This document shows positions 3,722 to 11,677 of a stretch of 64,000 nucleotides of DNA, piece after piece. Below the pieces are notes generated by a model, which saw nothing but the letters and a program-made list of their open reading frames with translations, did not search any database and was not told the origin of the DNA. Each line of letters begins with the position of its first letter. Position 1 is the first letter of the stretch. The DNA is from Mariprofundus sp. (GTDB lineage: Bacteria > Pseudomonadota > Zetaproteobacteria > Mariprofundales > Mariprofundaceae). The translations under genes were made by a program, and so were the position numbers. Location: contig JAJFLE010000068.1 of the NCBI GenBank assembly GCA_021772835.1, positions 1-64,000 on the forward strand. The letters run 5' to 3'.

Positions 3722-5383
3722 TTATGGCATGTTGAAAGGATAACCCGGAATCTCGAACGGTTCATCGATATCGATCAATTCAGCAGCCATAAACTGCCGG
3801 GCATAGGGGAGATAAACCTTCTCGTTGATGAAAATATCGAAGAGGTCGGGATCAACGTGGTTTCGTAACTTCATTTTACCAAGAATGGCCAGTGCCTCAG
3901 AGAGTTTCTTTGCATCCTTATAGGGACGATCCCAGGCCGTCAATGCTTCGAACACATCGGCAATAGCCATCACTCTGGCGGGTACGCTCATCTCTTCGCG
4001 GGTTAGTCCCAGCGGGTAACCTTTGCCATCCATGCGCTCATGATGCCCACCAGCATATTCAGGCACCGATGCCATCTCCTCGGGGAATTGCATGGATGCC
4101 AGCATCTTGTTTGTGACCAGGATATGGTCGTTGATAATCTGGCGCTCGTCGTCATTGAGCGTGCCGTAAGGAATCAACAGGTTGTTGAGTTCATCTGCGG
4201 AGAAAAACGGGGTAATCTCACCGTCGCAGTTGCACCACGTATGGGCAGCAATGTTGTTAACACGCGCTTTGAGTTCGGGCGCCATGGACTCCACACCTTT
4301 ATTGCACACTCGAATAAAGTCGCGTTGTGCGTTTAGCTGCTCGATTGTTTGCCGGTATTGCTTTTCAATCAAATCAGCTTTGTCCTTGTCGCCATTTATC
4401 TTGAGCAGGTGTTCAAGCATGCTGACTTTCGCATCGCGTTTAAGCACTTCGAAACGGGTATCAATCAGCTCAATGCGGTCAAAGACCGTTTCCAGTTTGG
4501 TAGATTTATCAACGATATGAATGGGGGTCGCAAGCTTGCCGCAGTCATGCAGCCAGGACGCCACCTCCAGGTTATATCGTTCCTGCTCAGTCAGCTTGAA
4601 TGCCTTCAAACAGCTTTCATCTCGGCTGGCCGCATCTGCCAGAGCCAGCGTCAGGAAGGGTACACGCCTGCAATGTTCACCGGTGTGAGCCGATGTTTCA
4701 TCGATACTGGCGGCGATGGTTTTGATAAAGGAGTCAAACAGTGCTTTCAGGTCATCAATCAGGCGTTTGTTGGTCAGGGCAATGGCGGCCTGAGAGGCCA
4801 GTGAATGCACCAGGTGCACATCGTTGTCATCGAAAGCAACCGGTCCGTTATTCGATTGTTTGTTGATCAGCTGGATCAAGCCTATGGTTTTGCCATCGTG
4901 GTTGGTCATGGGCACACAGAGCATGGATTGGGTGCGGTAGTTCATTTTTTTATCGAACAGGCGTGGACCGGTAAAATCAAAACCGGTTTCGTTCTCCTCA
5001 TACACATCCGGCAGGTTTACCGTTTTATTGTTCAGGGCTGAGTAAGTGACCACGAGTTTATTGTTGGGGCTGCCATCACGACGGTAGAGAGGTAATGGCT
5101 CCAGCTGGACGGGTTGATTGCTGGTGCCCCCTCTATTGATGCCGAGAGAACTGGTTTGCACAATCTCGAAGTTGAGCTTCTGAGCATCGTTGACGGTATA
5201 CAGCGTGCCTGCATCGGCACGTGTGATCTGCTTTGCTCCGATAAGGATACTTTCCAGCAGGTGTGGCATATCCTTCTCAGATGAAAGTGCTATACCGATA
5301 GCATTGAGCTTCTCTATTCTGGCAAGCAGGTCGGCATTATGGATTGCAGACTCAATTCTATCGCTTTGCAAAGTGGGCACCAT
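3722..5383 (-). CDS. GAF and HD-GYP domain cyclic-di-GMP phosphodiesterase
   Basis: A 553-residue cytoplasmic protein predicted to degrade c-di-GMP. The N-terminal third (about residues 15-205) is a GAF sensor domain. A short helix leads to the HD-GYP domain, seen as HTGEHCRR, the metal-binding HDCGK, then HHERMDGKGYP and ADVFEALTAWDRPY. About 110 residues are inserted between the HD and HHE blocks, including a stretch with WCNCDGE, longer than in the compact HD-GYP proteins. No membrane segment is visible. AAAGGGAGGC precedes the start. No partner genes flank it. The GAF ligand is unknown. HD-GYP proteins often control motility, which fits the large flagellar region 44 kb away, but the link is inference. 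Confidence 0.9.
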   Translation of the reverse strand: MVPTLQSDRIESAIHNADLLARIEKLNAIGIALSSEKDMPHLLESILIGAKQITRADAGTLYTVNDAQKLNFEIVQTSSLGINRGGTSNQPVQLEPLPLYRRDGSPNNKLVVTYSALNNKTVNLPDVYEENETGFDFTGPRLFDKKMNYRTQSMLCVPMTNHDGKTIGLIQLINKQSNNGPVAFDDNDVHLVHSLASQAAIALTNKRLIDDLKALFDSFIKTIAASIDETSAHTGEHCRRVPFLTLALADAASRDESCLKAFKLTEQERYNLEVASWLHDCGKLATPIHIVDKSTKLETVFDRIELIDTRFEVLKRDAKVSMLEHLLKINGDKDKADLIEKQYRQTIEQLNAQRDFIRVCNKGVESMAPELKARVNNIAAHTWCNCDGEITPFFSADELNNLLIPYGTLNDDERQIINDHILVTNKMLASMQFPEEMASVPEYAGGHHERMDGKGYPLGLTREEMSVPARVMAIADVFEALTAWDRPYKDAKKLSEALAILGKMKLRNHVDPDLFDIFINEKVYLPYARQFMAAELIDIDEPFEIPGYPFNMP

Positions 5384-5580: not shown

Positions 5581-5889
5581 CTACGATAAAACGCTGGCAA
5601 ATCGATTGTTGCGCAGCAGGTCGTGACCGGCGCGAATCAACTTATCCACCTGTTCGCCTGTGAGAGAGAAGCTGGTCGGAACGCTATTCAGGAAACGCCT
5701 CTTTGCAGGATTATCGATCACACCATCATTGGCACATCCGCTTGGCAGAAACAGCAGGATGAAGCTGAGTACAAGTCGGAAAACTGCGAGCTTTGAAGCA
5801 GCGGTATGTCGTATGCTTACCCTGTTTAATAACAGAGCGAGTATAGCATGTTTGCGGCTTTTGACAGGGTATGCAGGCATTTGGCTCAA
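5581..5889 (-). pseudogene. Remnant of a patatin-like lipoprotein gene (probable internal deletion)
   Basis: The reading frame encodes a hydrophobic lipoprotein-like leader (SFILLFLPSGC) followed directly by about 50 residues that resemble the C-terminal tail of bacterial patatin-like phospholipases: PAKRRFLNSVPTSF, then EQVDKLIRAGHDLL. The whole catalytic core (GxSxG serine and DGG aspartate) is missing, and no convincing start codon sits before the leader. The simplest reading is an in-frame deletion of about 200-250 codons. The family call rests on recalled tail motifs, so it is tentative. Alternatively it could be a small lipoprotein of unknown role. Confidence 0.4.
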
Positions 5890-5941: not shown

Positions 5942-6745
5942 ATGCCATTTGGCGATCAACAACAACTTGTCGGACGTGCGGTCTACATCAGCCAGCGTCT
6001 GGATTTGAAAGCTTTTGAACGAACACGGCGGCTGGCAACAAGTCCGTTAATCATCACTGCCGGTAGCCAGGGTGCTGCAGTTATGTTTCGCTATGGCGTG
6101 GTCGTTCTGTTCGGCCTGAGTCACGTTGAAGAGACTGCTTTTCTCAAGGATCTTGAATGTTCCGTTACCGATCCCTTTGAACATTATGAATCCGAAGGGT
6201 TTAAACTTTGCCTTAGCTCTGCCGCAGCCGAGGAACGTAACAGTGGTTGTCTGGCGATGGATGAGTTCAACCTGCCCCGTCTGCAGGTGGTGGCCAGTGT
6301 GCTGGCCAAATGCGTGGTCCTGTCACACTATGAAGTGGAGGTGGGGAAGACGTTTGAACGTATCGAACCGCTGGCCCACGATCTGCAACACGGTGGCCGG
6401 TTTATGCACAAGGGGCGCGAGCTACTGGCTCATATCGGCGATGTACTGATGATTCAGGGACGCATGGTAGGGCGCGTGGAGATCAGCGAAAAACCGGAGA
6501 TGCTGTGGGAAGAGCCGCAGTATGAGCGGTTGTATTTGCGCCTGGCCGAAGAGTATGAGCTGATCGAACGTCACCGGTCGCTGGAGCGCAAGCTCGACCT
6601 GGTTTCCAAAACTGCCGAAACGCTGCTCGATCTGTTGCAGAATAAAAGTTCTCATCGTGTTGAGTGGTATATCACGATTCTTATCGTGATAGAGATTATG
6701 CTCACTGTTTACGAAATGTGGGGACGCCACCTGCTGGAATCATGA
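5942..6745 (+). CDS. RMD1/YagE family (DUF155) protein
   Basis: A 267-residue protein of the RMD1/YagE family, known in fungi as mitochondrial sporulation/translation-related proteins; the bacterial function is not established. Seen: the central block GVVVLFGLSHVEE, a long helical segment rich in Glu and Arg (about 130-235), and a single membrane helix at the C-terminus (YITILIVIEIMLTVYEMW), which is the family layout of a C-terminally anchored cytosolic domain. The start at 5942 is preceded by GGGAGC; longer readings run into the divergent remnant. The next gene begins 25 bases downstream, so the two are probably cotranscribed. Confidence 0.82.
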   Translation: MPFGDQQQLVGRAVYISQRLDLKAFERTRRLATSPLIITAGSQGAAVMFRYGVVVLFGLSHVEETAFLKDLECSVTDPFEHYESEGFKLCLSSAAAEERNSGCLAMDEFNLPRLQVVASVLAKCVVLSHYEVEVGKTFERIEPLAHDLQHGGRFMHKGRELLAHIGDVLMIQGRMVGRVEISEKPEMLWEEPQYERLYLRLAEEYELIERHRSLERKLDLVSKTAETLLDLLQNKSSHRVEWYITILIVIEIMLTVYEMWGRHLLES

Positions 6746-6769: not shown

Positions 6770-7240
6770 ATGCGCAAACGAATTATTGGCAGGGATATTC
6801 AGCAGCCAGAACAAACGCAACGGAATTGGCTGAAGGTAATAGAATTGGCGCAGGCGGAACTCACATCTGAAGATGAGGTTTATCCGATTGAGTCAGCCCT
6901 GATTGAGGGGGGGCTGGGTTGGCGGGCTGCAGAGTCCGGAGAACAGAGAATACGACTGCTGTTCGATCAGCCGATAAATATTGAGTACATTCGCCTGATC
7001 TTTCACGAAGAGCAGCAACAACGCACACAGGAATTTGTCTTGAGATGGTCTCCCGATGGTGGTCACTCTTACCACGATATAGCCCGCCAGCAGTATAATT
7101 TCAGCTCGCCAGGCTCGACCCGCGAACTTGAGGATTACAGTGTTGACCTGCATGGCGTGACCGCTCTGGAGTTGTGCATCACTCCGGACACCAGTGGTGG
7201 CGGCGCGCGCGCCACACTGGCCGAGTGGCGGGTGGCTTGA
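6770..7240 (+). CDS. Small discoidin/carbohydrate-binding-like beta-sandwich protein
   Basis: A 156-residue protein of unknown function. After a charged N-terminal 35 residues, the rest alternates short strands typical of the F5/8C (discoidin) galactose-binding fold, for example RIRLLFDQPINIEYIRLIF, FVLRWSPDGG and ALELCITPD. There is no signal peptide, so it should act in the cytoplasm, unusual for such folds. A strong AAGGAGG site precedes the start. It follows the RMD1/YagE gene by 24 bases and precedes an NAD(P)-binding protein, suggesting a three-gene unit. The fold call is by eye and moderate; no catalytic motif is visible. Confidence 0.6.
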   Translation: MRKRIIGRDIQQPEQTQRNWLKVIELAQAELTSEDEVYPIESALIEGGLGWRAAESGEQRIRLLFDQPINIEYIRLIFHEEQQQRTQEFVLRWSPDGGHSYHDIARQQYNFSSPGSTRELEDYSVDLHGVTALELCITPDTSGGGARATLAEWRVA

Positions 7241-7291
7241 AGAGCTACGGTTTACTTGTAATGATTTTTCCGGCAGAGGAGAACATTGTTG

Positions 7292-7924
7292 ATGAACGTT
7301 GCTCTATTTGGGGCTAGCGGCGCTACAGGGCAATGTGTGGCTTCAGCCCTGCTCAGCGAAGGTATCAAGATAAAAGCGCTATGCCGCAATGCAAATGCTA
7401 TGGACGATTTCGCCGGTGAATTAACGGTGATTCAAGGTGATGTGAACGATAAAAAAGCTGTGAGTGAAACGTTGTGCGGCTGCGATGTGGCCATCTGTGT
7501 GTTCGGTCCGCACCTGCCCTATACCGATATCTTTTGCGCCGAAGCTACTACTGTGATTGTGGAAGCGATGCACGTGCTGGGGGTTCATCGTCTGATCTGC
7601 CAGACCGTCGCCATGGTTGGCGATTATCCGGAGAACCGGAGCTGGGCCATGCAGGAGATGGTGGAAGTATTCAACCACCGCTACCCGGAACTGGCAGCTG
7701 ATCGCAGTGAGCAGGAGCGCATGGTGCGCGGTAGCGGTCTTCTGTGGACCATACTCAAACCTCCGCGCCTGACCACAGGCCATGTGAATGAGGAGATTGA
7801 GGTCGGATGTGATGTGCCGGTCGGTGTATTAAGCTCGGCTTCAAGAGAGAGCATTGCCCATTGGTTGGTGAATGAGTTGCGGCACCCGTTGCATATCGGT
7901 GAGGCACTGTTTTTCCTTGATTGA
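7292..7924 (+). CDS. NAD(P)-binding atypical short-chain reductase (NmrA/SDR_a5-like)
   Basis: A 210-residue Rossmann-fold protein. It opens with the dinucleotide loop GASGATGQ (about residues 6-13) and continues through VIQGDVND, the usual NADP-contacting segment of atypical SDRs. Family members range from flavin/biliverdin reductases to regulatory sensors without enzymatic activity. There is no clear YxxxK pair, which fits the NmrA-like, possibly non-catalytic group. ATG at 7292 is chosen; two in-frame TTG codons just upstream (7286, 7289) are alternatives, all served by the same GAGGAG. Substrate unknown. Confidence 0.8.
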   Translation: MNVALFGASGATGQCVASALLSEGIKIKALCRNANAMDDFAGELTVIQGDVNDKKAVSETLCGCDVAICVFGPHLPYTDIFCAEATTVIVEAMHVLGVHRLICQTVAMVGDYPENRSWAMQEMVEVFNHRYPELAADRSEQERMVRGSGLLWTILKPPRLTTGHVNEEIEVGCDVPVGVLSSASRESIAHWLVNELRHPLHIGEALFFLD

Positions 7925-7998: not shown

Positions 7999-9087
7999 AT
8001 GAATGTTTTTGCTGCCGATTATCGGCGCGCGCGCGTGTTGTTTCTTGCCGCTGCAGAAAAGGCCGGTGCACAGGTCCGTAGTTTTGTTCACCCTGTGCAC
8101 GGGCCTGAATATGAGGTGCTGGCGACCGACGTAGCCTGGCTGGGCGAAAAAGATGCCGACACGGTGCTGGTGTTGCTGTCAGCTACCCACGGTGTTGAGG
8201 GATTCAGCGGTTCCGCTGCCCAGATTGATTTTCTCAGGCAGGTGAAAGCCTTGCCGCACGGCATTGGTGTGCTGATCGTGCATGCAGTCAATCCGCACGG
8301 TTTTGCCTGGTTGCGCAGGGTCACCGAGGACGGTGTTGACCTGAATCGTAATTATATCGATTTCTCCCACATGCTGCCAATCAATGAGGGTTATGACGAG
8401 CTGGCCGAATCTATTGTGCCGGAATCGCTGGATGCGGAGTTGCTGGATACCTGCGACCGCAGACTATCAGCTTACCTTAAGGCTCACGGTTCCGTCGTGT
8501 ATGAGACAGCGTTGTCGGCAGGACAGTACAGTTATCCGAACGGACTGTTTTATGGTGGCAGCGGGCCGACATGGTCACGGTTAACCTGCGAACGGATTAT
8601 GAGCGACTTCCATCTGAGCAAGCGCAAACGGGTGGCGGTGATCGATTTTCATACTGGCATAGGTCCGTTCGGCTACGGCGAACTGATCTGCGACCATCCT
8701 CCCGGTTCAACTGGTGTGAGGCTGGCACGACAGTGGTTCGGTGACTCGGTGACGGAGCCAGCACTGGGCACCTCAATCTCTGTGACCAAGCACGGGCTCT
8801 CGGATTATGGTTGGATGCATGGGGTAGGAGAGCCGCTAGTATTTATCGCGCTGGAGTTCGGCACCTACAGCTTTGACCACATGAAGCAGGCACTGCGCGC
8901 GGATCACTGGCTGCATGCGCAAGGTGCTGTCGATTGGCATAATGAGCGCACCCGGTCCATCAAGGCTGTCATGCGCAAACACTTCTATCCGGCGACACCC
9001 GACTGGCAGGAAATGGTGTTGTGTCGTAGTCGTCAGTGTATCCGTCAGGCGCTCAACGGGCTTGAGTCCGAATCAGGTCGGAGATAA
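7999..9087 (+). CDS. DUF2817 family M14-like metallopeptidase
   Basis: A 362-residue cytoplasmic protein of DUF2817, a branch of the zinc carboxypeptidase (M14) fold. Visible zinc/active-site elements: THGVEGFSG (H and E of the HxxE motif), VNPHGFAWLRR, the LNRNYIDF block, then DFHTGIGPFG (third zinc ligand) and a late ALEFGTY block with the expected catalytic Glu. Substrates of this family are not established; M14 relatives remove C-terminal or amide-linked amino acids. It converges on a RimK-type ligase operon whose stop abuts this one, so a ligase and a peptidase share a locus. The ribosome site is weak. Confidence 0.83.
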   Translation: MNVFAADYRRARVLFLAAAEKAGAQVRSFVHPVHGPEYEVLATDVAWLGEKDADTVLVLLSATHGVEGFSGSAAQIDFLRQVKALPHGIGVLIVHAVNPHGFAWLRRVTEDGVDLNRNYIDFSHMLPINEGYDELAESIVPESLDAELLDTCDRRLSAYLKAHGSVVYETALSAGQYSYPNGLFYGGSGPTWSRLTCERIMSDFHLSKRKRVAVIDFHTGIGPFGYGELICDHPPGSTGVRLARQWFGDSVTEPALGTSISVTKHGLSDYGWMHGVGEPLVFIALEFGTYSFDHMKQALRADHWLHAQGAVDWHNERTRSIKAVMRKHFYPATPDWQEMVLCRSRQCIRQALNGLESESGRR

Positions 9088-10578
9088 TCAGCCGTTACGC
9101 ATGGCTTCGATGCGGCGGATGAACTCGTTGATGATCGTGTCGTAAAGCTCTCCCTTGAGCACTTTATCCTCCACCGACTGATCAAGGCTCGGGTTGTCGT
9201 TGACTTCGATCACGAAAATTCCATTGTCATTTTGTTTTAGATCCACACCATAAAATCCGTTGCCGATCAGGGCAGCGGACTCCAGCGCAATGCGTACCAC
9301 CTCACTCGGTGCATCTTCCACCCGCATCGTTTCAAAGCCGCCGTAGCGGGCCGAACCGTTCGCCTTGTGATTGACGATTTGCCAGTGACCACGCGCCTGT
9401 CGGTACTGGCAGGCATAAAGGGCCTTGCCGTTGAGAATGCCGATGCGCCAGTCGTAGGCGGTGTACATGAATTCCTGCGCCAGAATGATGCGCGAATGGG
9501 CAAACAGATTCTTCGCCGCATCCATGACCTGATCCCGGTTTTCGGCCTTGAACATGCCCCGAGAGAATGAACCGTCGGGAATTTTCAGTACCATAGGATA
9601 GCTCAATTCCGTTTCCAGTTGCAGCAAGGATTGCTCTTTGAAACGGTAACGGTTCAGCGGGACAGTTTTTGGAGTGGGCAGGTTTTTTGCTGTCAGTCGT
9701 TCCCACAGGTATACCTTGTTGGTACAGCGGATAATGGATTTCGGGTCGTCAATCACCGGCATGCCCTCGGCCTCGGCCTTGCGGGCAAAGCGGAAAGTAT
9801 GATTGTCAATCGAGGTGGTCTCACGGATAAACAACGCATCGTATTCGGCAATCCGGTTGTAGTCCTTTTTCTGGATCAGGTCGATATCGACGCGCAGGCG
9901 CTGACCGGCCTTGATGAATTGCTCCAGGGCATCCATATCCGAAGGCGGCATTTTTTCATTCGGATTGTAGAGTATGGCCAGATCATAGAGAGCGGGCTTA
10001 CGGCTTTCATTGCGCGTGCGGCGCGGCATGCGGACATAGGAGCGCAGGCAGGCCTCGAAGAAGTCGCTAAGAGACAGGGTGACCTGATGCAGGCCCATTG
10101 GACGGATGGCGCGAATCCTCCAGCGTTTTCCCTTCTCGATGACCACTTTCAACAGAGGGTAACGGAACACATCAAATACTTCTGCAGCCAGACGTTTGAA
10201 ACGTGGATCGTCACCCTGACCGAAGAACACGTAAACTTCGAAAGACTCCTGGGGTGGCTCGGCAAGGCGCTTCATGGTTTTTTCAAGCAGGTGCTCCAGA
10301 TCGGGCAAGGCAAAGGCATACAGACTCTGTCGTGAGAGGTCGATGATGTCGGCAATAGTCGGCATCGGAATATCGTTGCGGGCTTCAGCCAGCAGTGAGC
10401 AGTAATAGCCTCCACTCAGATAGGTGTAATGGCGGCAAAGGTTGATAATGCGCATCGGTCGCTTCTGTGCGACGGCCTCACGCGTGAGATAGTCGTTGGC
10501 GGTGATCACCTCCAGAGCATCAATCGTCCATTTCCAGTCTTTGAGTCGGTCGACAATCACAGTATGACGGACAGGCAT
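9088..10578 (-). CDS. RimK-family ATP-grasp ligase with N-terminal extension
   Basis: A 496-residue ATP-grasp enzyme expected to join an amino acid (often glutamate) to a carboxylate through an acyl phosphate. The C-terminal half carries the RimK/ATP-grasp fold: RFARKAEAEGMPVIDDP, the ATP-binding lysine in YPMVLKIPDGSFSRG, and the Mg-binding VIEVNDNPSLD. The first 200 residues are a RimK-associated N-terminal domain, making it nearly twice the length of E. coli RimK (300). It starts one base after the stop of the GNAT/C39 gene, so translation is coupled. The acceptor is unknown: a ribosomal protein, a peptide or a small molecule are all possible. Confidence 0.87.
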   Translation of the reverse strand: MPVRHTVIVDRLKDWKWTIDALEVITANDYLTREAVAQKRPMRIINLCRHYTYLSGGYYCSLLAEARNDIPMPTIADIIDLSRQSLYAFALPDLEHLLEKTMKRLAEPPQESFEVYVFFGQGDDPRFKRLAAEVFDVFRYPLLKVVIEKGKRWRIRAIRPMGLHQVTLSLSDFFEACLRSYVRMPRRTRNESRKPALYDLAILYNPNEKMPPSDMDALEQFIKAGQRLRVDIDLIQKKDYNRIAEYDALFIRETTSIDNHTFRFARKAEAEGMPVIDDPKSIIRCTNKVYLWERLTAKNLPTPKTVPLNRYRFKEQSLLQLETELSYPMVLKIPDGSFSRGMFKAENRDQVMDAAKNLFAHSRIILAQEFMYTAYDWRIGILNGKALYACQYRQARGHWQIVNHKANGSARYGGFETMRVEDAPSEVVRIALESAALIGNGFYGVDLKQNDNGIFVIEVNDNPSLDQSVEDKVLKGELYDTIINEFIRRIEAMRNG

Positions 10579-10579
10579 G

Positions 10580-11677
10580 TTATTTTTCTCCCCTGGATAT
10601 CAATAGCGTGGCGTACTGACGGCGGGAACCGTAGAAACGCATACGTTCAAATTCATGGCGGGCAACAGGAATGCCGAAGCAGGTGGTCTCAGTCTTGCCC
10701 TCAGCCGTATCGACGAAGGGTTCGTGGATATAGACAAAGCGTTCATCAAAACCGCAAATGACCACCCAGTGTGGCGACTTGTCGCCGGTTAGCCGGTAGG
10801 CGCTGATCAGGACTATCGGGATATCACCAGCCATAAATCGCTGCTCCACCTCGTCAAGTGACACCTGGCGTTCATGCAGGGGAAGGCCGAGCTGGTGAAT
10901 CTCCTGCAGGAAGTCTTCTTCGACAATACGCATCACCTCACGTTTCTCTTCGCTGCGAACCGAATCGATAAACATGACCGCATCACAAGGGGTGAATACC
11001 TCGACATGCAAGCCGCGACGGAATGCGGAGAGCGCCAGCCCGAAAGGGCTGCAACCGCCATGGCCGCTGGTCATGAAAATGCTGGTGGCTTCGCGCCAGA
11101 GCCTGAGCTCCAGATGCCGGGTCAGCTGCAACTCGGGATTCACTGCTTTTAACGCCATCATCAGCGAGGCAGGGCCGCAGGTGAAGTCAAGTGTCTGGGT
11201 ATATAACGGTACACGACTGATATCCGGCGACAGGTGGGATGCCAGCGCTTTCTCCATGCGAATGGCTGCGGCATGGTCTTCGTAATAGTCCGGAAAAATG
11301 TCAAAATCACGGTAACCCAGCTTATGGTAGAGGGCGATGGCGGTGCTGTTGTTGACATGCACCTCCAGTCGCATGGAAACGACGCCACGTTCCAGCGCGT
11401 CCATCTCGCTTGCGGCCATCAGCTTTACAGCGATGCCCTTGCCCCGGCTTTCAGGAGAGATAGCCAGTGAATAGAGGCGGGCCATCGAGGTGTTCTGGTG
11501 AAACAGCACAAGACTGTAGCCGAGCAAGCTTTCGCCTTCGTTATAAACGAAAAGGGAAGCTTTGCCGCGTTTGAGCAGGTGGCGGAAACTGCGCTCGGAA
11601 AGACGGTCAATTTCGAAACAGCGCTGCTCGAGTGAAACCAGTGCTGGAATGTCGGCAATCAGGGCAGTTCTGATCAT
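10580..11677 (-). CDS. GNAT acetyltransferase fused to a C39-like papain-fold peptidase
   Basis: A 365-residue two-domain fusion. Residues 1-145 form a RimI-like GNAT domain with the acetyl-CoA loop SRGKGIA at 77-83 and the late ALYHKLGY helix. Residues 155-365 resemble peptidase C39/papain folds: Cys167 in DFTCGPASL, His303 in SPHWVVI, then IHEP where related proteins usually have an Asp before Pro (Glu319 here). If the Glu does not replace the Asp, the third catalytic residue is altered. It is the first gene of an operon with the RimK-type ligase. The fusion itself is a recurring arrangement next to RimK-type genes as I recall; its substrate is unknown. Confidence 0.85.
   Translation of the reverse strand: MIRTALIADIPALVSLEQRCFEIDRLSERSFRHLLKRGKASLFVYNEGESLLGYSLVLFHQNTSMARLYSLAISPESRGKGIAVKLMAASEMDALERGVVSMRLEVHVNNSTAIALYHKLGYRDFDIFPDYYEDHAAAIRMEKALASHLSPDISRVPLYTQTLDFTCGPASLMMALKAVNPELQLTRHLELRLWREATSIFMTSGHGGCSPFGLALSAFRRGLHVEVFTPCDAVMFIDSVRSEEKREVMRIVEEDFLQEIHQLGLPLHERQVSLDEVEQRFMAGDIPIVLISAYRLTGDKSPHWVVICGFDERFVYIHEPFVDTAEGKTETTCFGIPVARHEFERMRFYGSRRQYATLLISRGEK

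Follow-up and report, generated by a model that had tools for sequence, protein, structure and literature searches.

The RLAN family has been described with a neighboring GNAT-papain gene. In the 64,000-nucleotide stretch of a Mariprofundus sp. contig (JAJFLE010000068.1) analyzed here, hereafter the window, a locus of this kind combines an RLAN-bearing RimK-type ATP-grasp ligase and a GNAT acetyltransferase fused to a DUF3335 papain-fold (C39-like) domain with genes for a DUF2817 protein, predicted to be a metallohydrolase, and a DUF155 protein. A review of papain-like proteins (PMC10318531) states that DUF3335 is often fused to GNAT and, on a possible peptide-ligase role, refers to Iyer et al. 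2009 (Mol Biosyst 5:1636; PMC3268129). On both accounts the ligase plus GNAT(-papain) core is therefore an already known system, with a function that is only predicted, and it is not new here; what the analysis shows is that DUF2817 and DUF155, the latter related to human RMND1, travel with that core. We propose, with a probability of about 0.42, that the locus is a peptide-making and peptide-trimming module with a membrane tether. Its features, and those of the genes between its members, are as follows.

7999..9087, + strand: DUF2817 protein, predicted M14 (carboxypeptidase/aspartoacylase)-type metallohydrolase, 362 residues (PF10994, 369.9 bits)
9088..10578, - strand: RLAN + RimK-type ATP-grasp ligase, 496 residues (PF14401 + PF08443)
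10054..10500, - strand: RLAN, the extra domain at the N-terminus of the ligase (PF14401, residues 27-175, 153-156.3 bits)
10580..11677, - strand: GNAT acetyltransferase fused to a DUF3335 papain-fold (C39-like) domain, 365 residues (PF00583 + PF11814)
10598..11212, - strand: DUF3335 (C39-like) domain (PF11814, residues 156-360, 276.8-278.5 bits)
10579..10582, - strand: junction, the GNAT-C39 stop codon plus the single base before the ligase start, sequence GGGGAGAAAAATAACATG
5942..6745, + strand: DUF155 protein (RMND1/Sif2-Sif3/Mrx10 family), ~267 residues, with a predicted C-terminal hydrophobic helix (PF02582, 113.8 bits)
6770..7240, + strand: 156-residue, weakly discoidin-like protein between DUF155 and DUF2817 (PF00754, 19.4 bits, below cut-off)
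7286..7924, + strand: NAD(P)-binding NmrA-like protein (PF13460, 111.8 bits)

A sequence-only reading of the window had proposed that the ligase, the acetyltransferase/papain-fold protein and the metallopeptidase belong together, and co-occurrence and co-localization support their forming one functional module. Of 42 genomes of the window's class, 12 have RLAN. These 12 also account for every DUF3335, and DUF2817 is found in them and in genome G005 (13 in all); in all 12 ligase-bearing genomes the three families lie at one locus. Across 397 genomes of the phylum, RLAN was found in 81, DUF3335 in 62, full-length DUF2817 in 54 and DUF155 in 40; RLAN and DUF3335 are less than 8 kb apart in 59 of the 61 genomes having both, and of 80 named loci retrieved with the ligase, 77 have a GNAT gene adjoining it. 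Four of these 80 also have an adjacent DUF2817 gene (two gammaproteobacterial metagenome-assembled genomes, Methylophaga and Methylomicrobium), and in G046 and G049, too, DUF2817 stands next to the GNAT or ligase genes. Of the 11 genomes outside the class that have both DUF2817 and DUF3335, 2 carry them side by side, against an expectation of ∼0.05 (p∼9e-4), and the corresponding chance of co-localization for DUF155 with DUF3335 is ∼8e-6; both are simple binomial estimates that assume genes to be placed uniformly in 4 Mb genomes and related genomes to be independent. The absence of any co-occurrence of DUF2817 with the ligase pair beyond chance had been named as what would overturn the proposal, and this challenge fails because all 12 ligase-bearing genomes of the class have DUF2817 at the locus and the linkage recurs in distant lineages with other gene orders.

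The linkage of DUF2817 and DUF155 to the ligase is not one inherited block, because gene orders vary (DUF155-GNAT/C39-ligase; ligase-DUF2817-GNAT/C39-DUF155; ligase-GNAT/C39-DUF155; GNAT/C39-DUF2817-DUF155; and GNAT/C39-ligase-DUF2817) and the module-linked ligases sit in separate parts of a quick ligase tree. In G005 (L101, 2126-5057), a lone DUF2817 gene stands beside ilvA; the full module has this same flank in G022, G024 and G030, and the lone gene looks like a remnant left by loss of the ligase pair.

The fourth member, DUF155, was overlooked by the sequence-only reading. Its PF02582 score lies above the cut-off of 27; its open reading frame opens at 5660, and we set the start at the ATG at 5942, where its relatives begin. 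Of the 12 class genomes with the ligase, 10 have DUF155 at the module locus, the exceptions being G023, where DUF155 is elsewhere in the genome, and G010, which has none at the locus; the unlinked G023 copy (L269, 4966-5766; contig G023:C40) is 78% identical to that of the window. Outside the class, DUF155 is linked to the module in Sedimenticola (two species), Methylomicrobium, G046, G212 and G288. The DUF155 proteins form two subtypes of ∼22-25% identity, both of which occur at the module and each in several lineages. Within the class the subtype switches between branches of the ligase tree: G038, G039 and G010 have the ligases nearest to the window's, but G038 and G039 differ from the window in DUF155 subtype. 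No single argument for a functional link is stronger than this one, that some DUF155 has repeatedly been kept at the locus.

By hydropathy and model, residues 243-261 of DUF155 form a hydrophobic segment (mean hydropathy 1.58) predicted to be helical. The model (pLDDT 83) has an N-terminal alpha/beta domain followed by a helical part that ends in this helix, and its best PDB matches are to one lobe of TATA-binding protein; with an E of 2e-3, above the 0.001 level, this likeness is only a hint that the N-terminal domain could bind nucleic acid.

For DUF2817, H64xxE67, R106/R107, N116-R117, H218 and E286 are invariant among 13 relatives, so that the whole M14 carboxypeptidase signature is kept, with H64, E67 and H218 as zinc ligands, and with R106/R107 and N116-R117 as what we take, by motif, to be carboxylate-binding residues and E286 as the presumed catalytic one. 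A Foldseek comparison of the model (pLDDT 74) with the PDB gave a best E of 2.5e-5 with low TM-scores (0.3-0.4), the top ranks being held by carboxypeptidase A, aspartoacylase-family proteins, the cyanophycin dipeptidase CphZ and related proteins of the zinc exopeptidase fold. Sequence searches of solved structures returned nothing with the single protein and, with a profile, only MpaA (M14; E 0.11). Zinc ligands, Arg/Asn-Arg/Glu residues and fold thus all point to a protein of the M14 superfamily.

The sequence-only reading rightly described an ATP-grasp ligase with an extra N-terminal domain, which belongs to the already known Pfam family RLAN; the RLAN domain and the RimK-type ATP-grasp domain (PF08443, residues 295-469) both score above cut-off, and K288, K332, D446, E458 and N460 are invariant among 25 relatives. 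In the GNAT-C39 protein, the GNAT domain (PF00583) covers residues 12-145, and in the C39-like domain Q161, C167 and H303 (oxyanion Gln, nucleophile Cys and His) are invariant in a 23-row alignment. The third residue, in an IHEP motif, is Glu319, and it had been suggested that the departure from Asp might alter activity. The substitution is real: among 63 DUF3335 proteins, 48 have Asp and 15 have Glu, the latter comprising all 12 from the window's class together with three close relatives. With the other catalytic residues kept, it is a conservative, clade-wide D-to-E change rather than evidence of altered activity. The papain-fold domain is itself an optional part of the module because about a quarter of RLAN genomes have no DUF3335; those looked at have a GNAT of ∼150-200 residues instead.

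The three open reading frames of the sequence-only reading lie exactly where it had placed them. As it held, DUF2817 converges on the ligase, its TAA (9085-9087) abutting the ligase stop (9088-9090). It had also called the ligase translationally coupled to GNAT-C39: a single base does separate the GNAT-C39 TAA from the ligase ATG, with GGGGAG just upstream, inside the GNAT-C39 gene, and these features make the coupling plausible, although the coupling itself is inferred from them.

In the module that we favor, the RLAN/ATP-grasp ligase would use ATP to link amino acids into a short chain, the GNAT domain would acetylate an amino group of the substrate or product, and the papain-fold domain and the M14-type DUF2817 hydrolase would cut or trim the chain, making its amount or length reversible, with DUF155 tethering the process at the membrane. 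That the ligase, C39 and M14 domains have kept their catalytic residues speaks for this reading; as for the adding, trimming and acetylating envisaged earlier, we infer every catalytic step, the substrate and the DUF155 role, taking the chemistry from the protein families. A search of the neighborhood for a small conserved acceptor gene had been suggested, and none, whether acceptor or precursor, was found among the shared neighbors within 6 kb of the 80 ligase loci, the remaining shared neighbors being lineage-specific (e.g., CorA in Pseudomonas). Because no acceptor gene travels with the module, we lean slightly toward a small peptide, started from a free amino acid or dipeptide, over a protein tag, as precedent also suggests: in the NAGGN pathway, GNAT and ATP-grasp type activities of Ngg make an acetylated dipeptide (PMC8070244). 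The CorA-family magnesium transporter gene stands directly 3′ of the RLAN ligase in 16 of the 80 loci (e.g., L142, 11509-12519), and all 16 are titled Pseudomonas or not yet distinguished from Pseudomonas.

Several points weigh against a peptide-making module. No substrate, product or acceptor was identified; the NAGGN enzymes themselves are not matched, the ligase scoring 28.5 bits against the TIGR03103 synthetase cut-off of 569; and G005, which lacks the ligase pair, still has DUF2817. Both DUF2817 and DUF155 are found in many genomes that have no ligase, as would be expected if they were unrelated neighbors of the ligase plus GNAT pair, but the recurrence of the linkage in several lineages with differing gene orders, together with the binomial estimates from outside the class, leaves that account very improbable. 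One could also envision a peptide natural-product (graspetide-like) or defense cluster, in keeping with the assembly of an ATP-grasp ligase, an acetyltransferase and a peptidase and with a distribution that is patchy within genera; we give this little credence, given the lack of a small conserved precursor gene. A PADLOC search with the four module proteins returned no match, and a defense system was rejected on that basis.

The remaining alternatives concern proteins as targets. In the most substantial of these, a protein of the translation machinery or membrane would be reversibly tagged: like RimK, the ligase would attach amino acids to a carboxylate of a protein, DUF2817 would remove them as a carboxypeptidase, GNAT would acetylate an N-terminus, and DUF155 would keep these enzymes close to ribosomes at the membrane, much as RMND1 serves mitochondrial translation. 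Human RMND1, the one family member with a reported part in translation, is reported to be an inner-membrane protein required in mitochondrial translation (PMC6056718), RimB trims the polyglutamate added by RimK (PMC11957791), and the window's GNAT is RimI-like (its top NCBIfam match, RimI, scores 75.9 bits against a cut-off of 86.4), with N-terminal acetyltransferases among its best PDB matches. Moreover, in the class the module is confined to genomes with rimB-rimK. Of the 42 class genomes, 15 have a canonical RimK (above the family cut-off), and these are also the ones with retropepsin RimB; they are the 12 with the ligase and G005, G028 and G029, so that the pair is present in 12 of 12 ligase-bearing genomes as compared to 3 of 30 others (hypergeometric p = 4e-8; 5e-5 with labels permuted within genus, neither being a full phylogenetic test). 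This restriction and the RimI-like GNAT suit a protein-modifying role equally well as they do a peptide-making one. However, no acceptor protein was found, the C-terminal tails of ribosomal protein S6 are alike with and without the module, and the retropepsin association outside the class (33 of 40 ligase-bearing genomes as compared to 15 of 40 others) comes from an 80-genome sample that is not taxonomically balanced. We therefore regard such tagging as possible, though on the unlikely side.

That the ligase is simply a second RimK modifying S6 scarcely deserves belief, despite its RimK-type ATP-grasp fold and the presence of rpsF and dnaB a few kb upstream of the module in G039, the sole such neighborhood seen. 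The sequence-only reading would have fallen with a plain S6 modifier, which the ligase is not, because a separate canonical rimB-rimK pair is present in the same genome (L233, 5708-8099, contig G000:C29, in the order rimB-rimK-astE) and the score of the ligase to the RimK family TIGR00768 (90.6 bits) is below the cut-off of 143.4; against PRK10446 it is 29 as compared to 331. S6 was also rejected as a target: inspected by eye in 39 genomes, its tails are mostly Ala-rich at the end and show no difference with or without the ligase, the module or rimK.

The rimB and rimK genes are mostly adjacent and usually followed by an AstE/AspA-type M14 gene, while in G012 they are on different contigs. In relatives, the rimB-rimK-astE locus is often flanked by genes for CorA and MscS-type channels, and G028 (contig C8; L249, 6290-7368) has a second RimB with a partial RimK match broken by a TAA stop, apparently a decayed copy.

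Within the window, the 156-residue discoidin-like gene and the NmrA-like gene had no match in the other module loci compared, and in L092, L093 and L099 DUF155 directly adjoins DUF2817. The two intervening genes (6770-7924) are seen only in the window's genome; they are probably local insertions, and their membership in the module is doubtful. A GAF plus HD-GYP type protein is encoded at 3722-5383, upstream of DUF155 on the opposite strand, with no evident link to the module. An Rfam scan found no structured RNA in the window.

An RLAN ligase is carried by about a fifth of the sampled phylum genomes, and it gains here a tie to rimB-rimK genomes and two further partners amenable to deletion and assay, one of which, DUF2817, would be a hydrolase whose removal is expected to let product accumulate. 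Bacterial DUF155, of the family of the disease gene RMND1, likewise gains a concrete functional neighborhood. It is a distinctly long shot that bacterial DUF155 is the membrane partner of a peptide-ligase module modifying a translation-associated protein; were this so, the unexplained mitochondrial-translation role of RMND1 would trace back to a system for tagging with peptides or for anchoring translation, and the same ligase module would have taken up two separate DUF155 subtypes.

Elsewhere, tubulin TTLL ligases, which are of ATP-grasp type, are paired with M14 carboxypeptidases (CCP) as trimmers; this eukaryotic system has no GNAT or papain-fold partner and is an analogy only to the window's ligase and M14 pair. 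The DUF155 protein shares with RMND1, Mrx10 and Sif2-Sif3 the DUF155 domain and, by prediction, a C-terminal hydrophobic helix and differs in being bacterial and linked to a peptide-ligase module. With the NAGGN osmolyte pathway (Ngg/AsnO, PMC8070244), the locus has in common a combination of N-acetylation and peptide-bond formation, both predicted here, and a peptidase gene in the operon, but its GNAT and ligase are separate chains, the peptidase families differ, and no AsnO amidotransferase gene was found among the neighboring genes scanned. RimK-RimB polyglutamylation of RpsF (PMC11957791) similarly sets an ATP-grasp ligase against a hydrolase, whereas the window's ligase is of another subfamily with RLAN, its hydrolase is of M14 type rather than a retropepsin, and the canonical pair coexists in the genome. 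The closest system remains that of RLAN-RimK ATP-grasp and GNAT-papain proteins, with which the locus shares both RLAN on a RimK-like ligase and an adjacent GNAT fused to DUF3335. In the literature searched, which did not include Iyer et al. 2009 and so leaves room for an earlier mention, nothing was found on the linked DUF2817, the linked DUF155 or the nesting within rimB-rimK genomes, the three points in which the window's locus differs from the described system.

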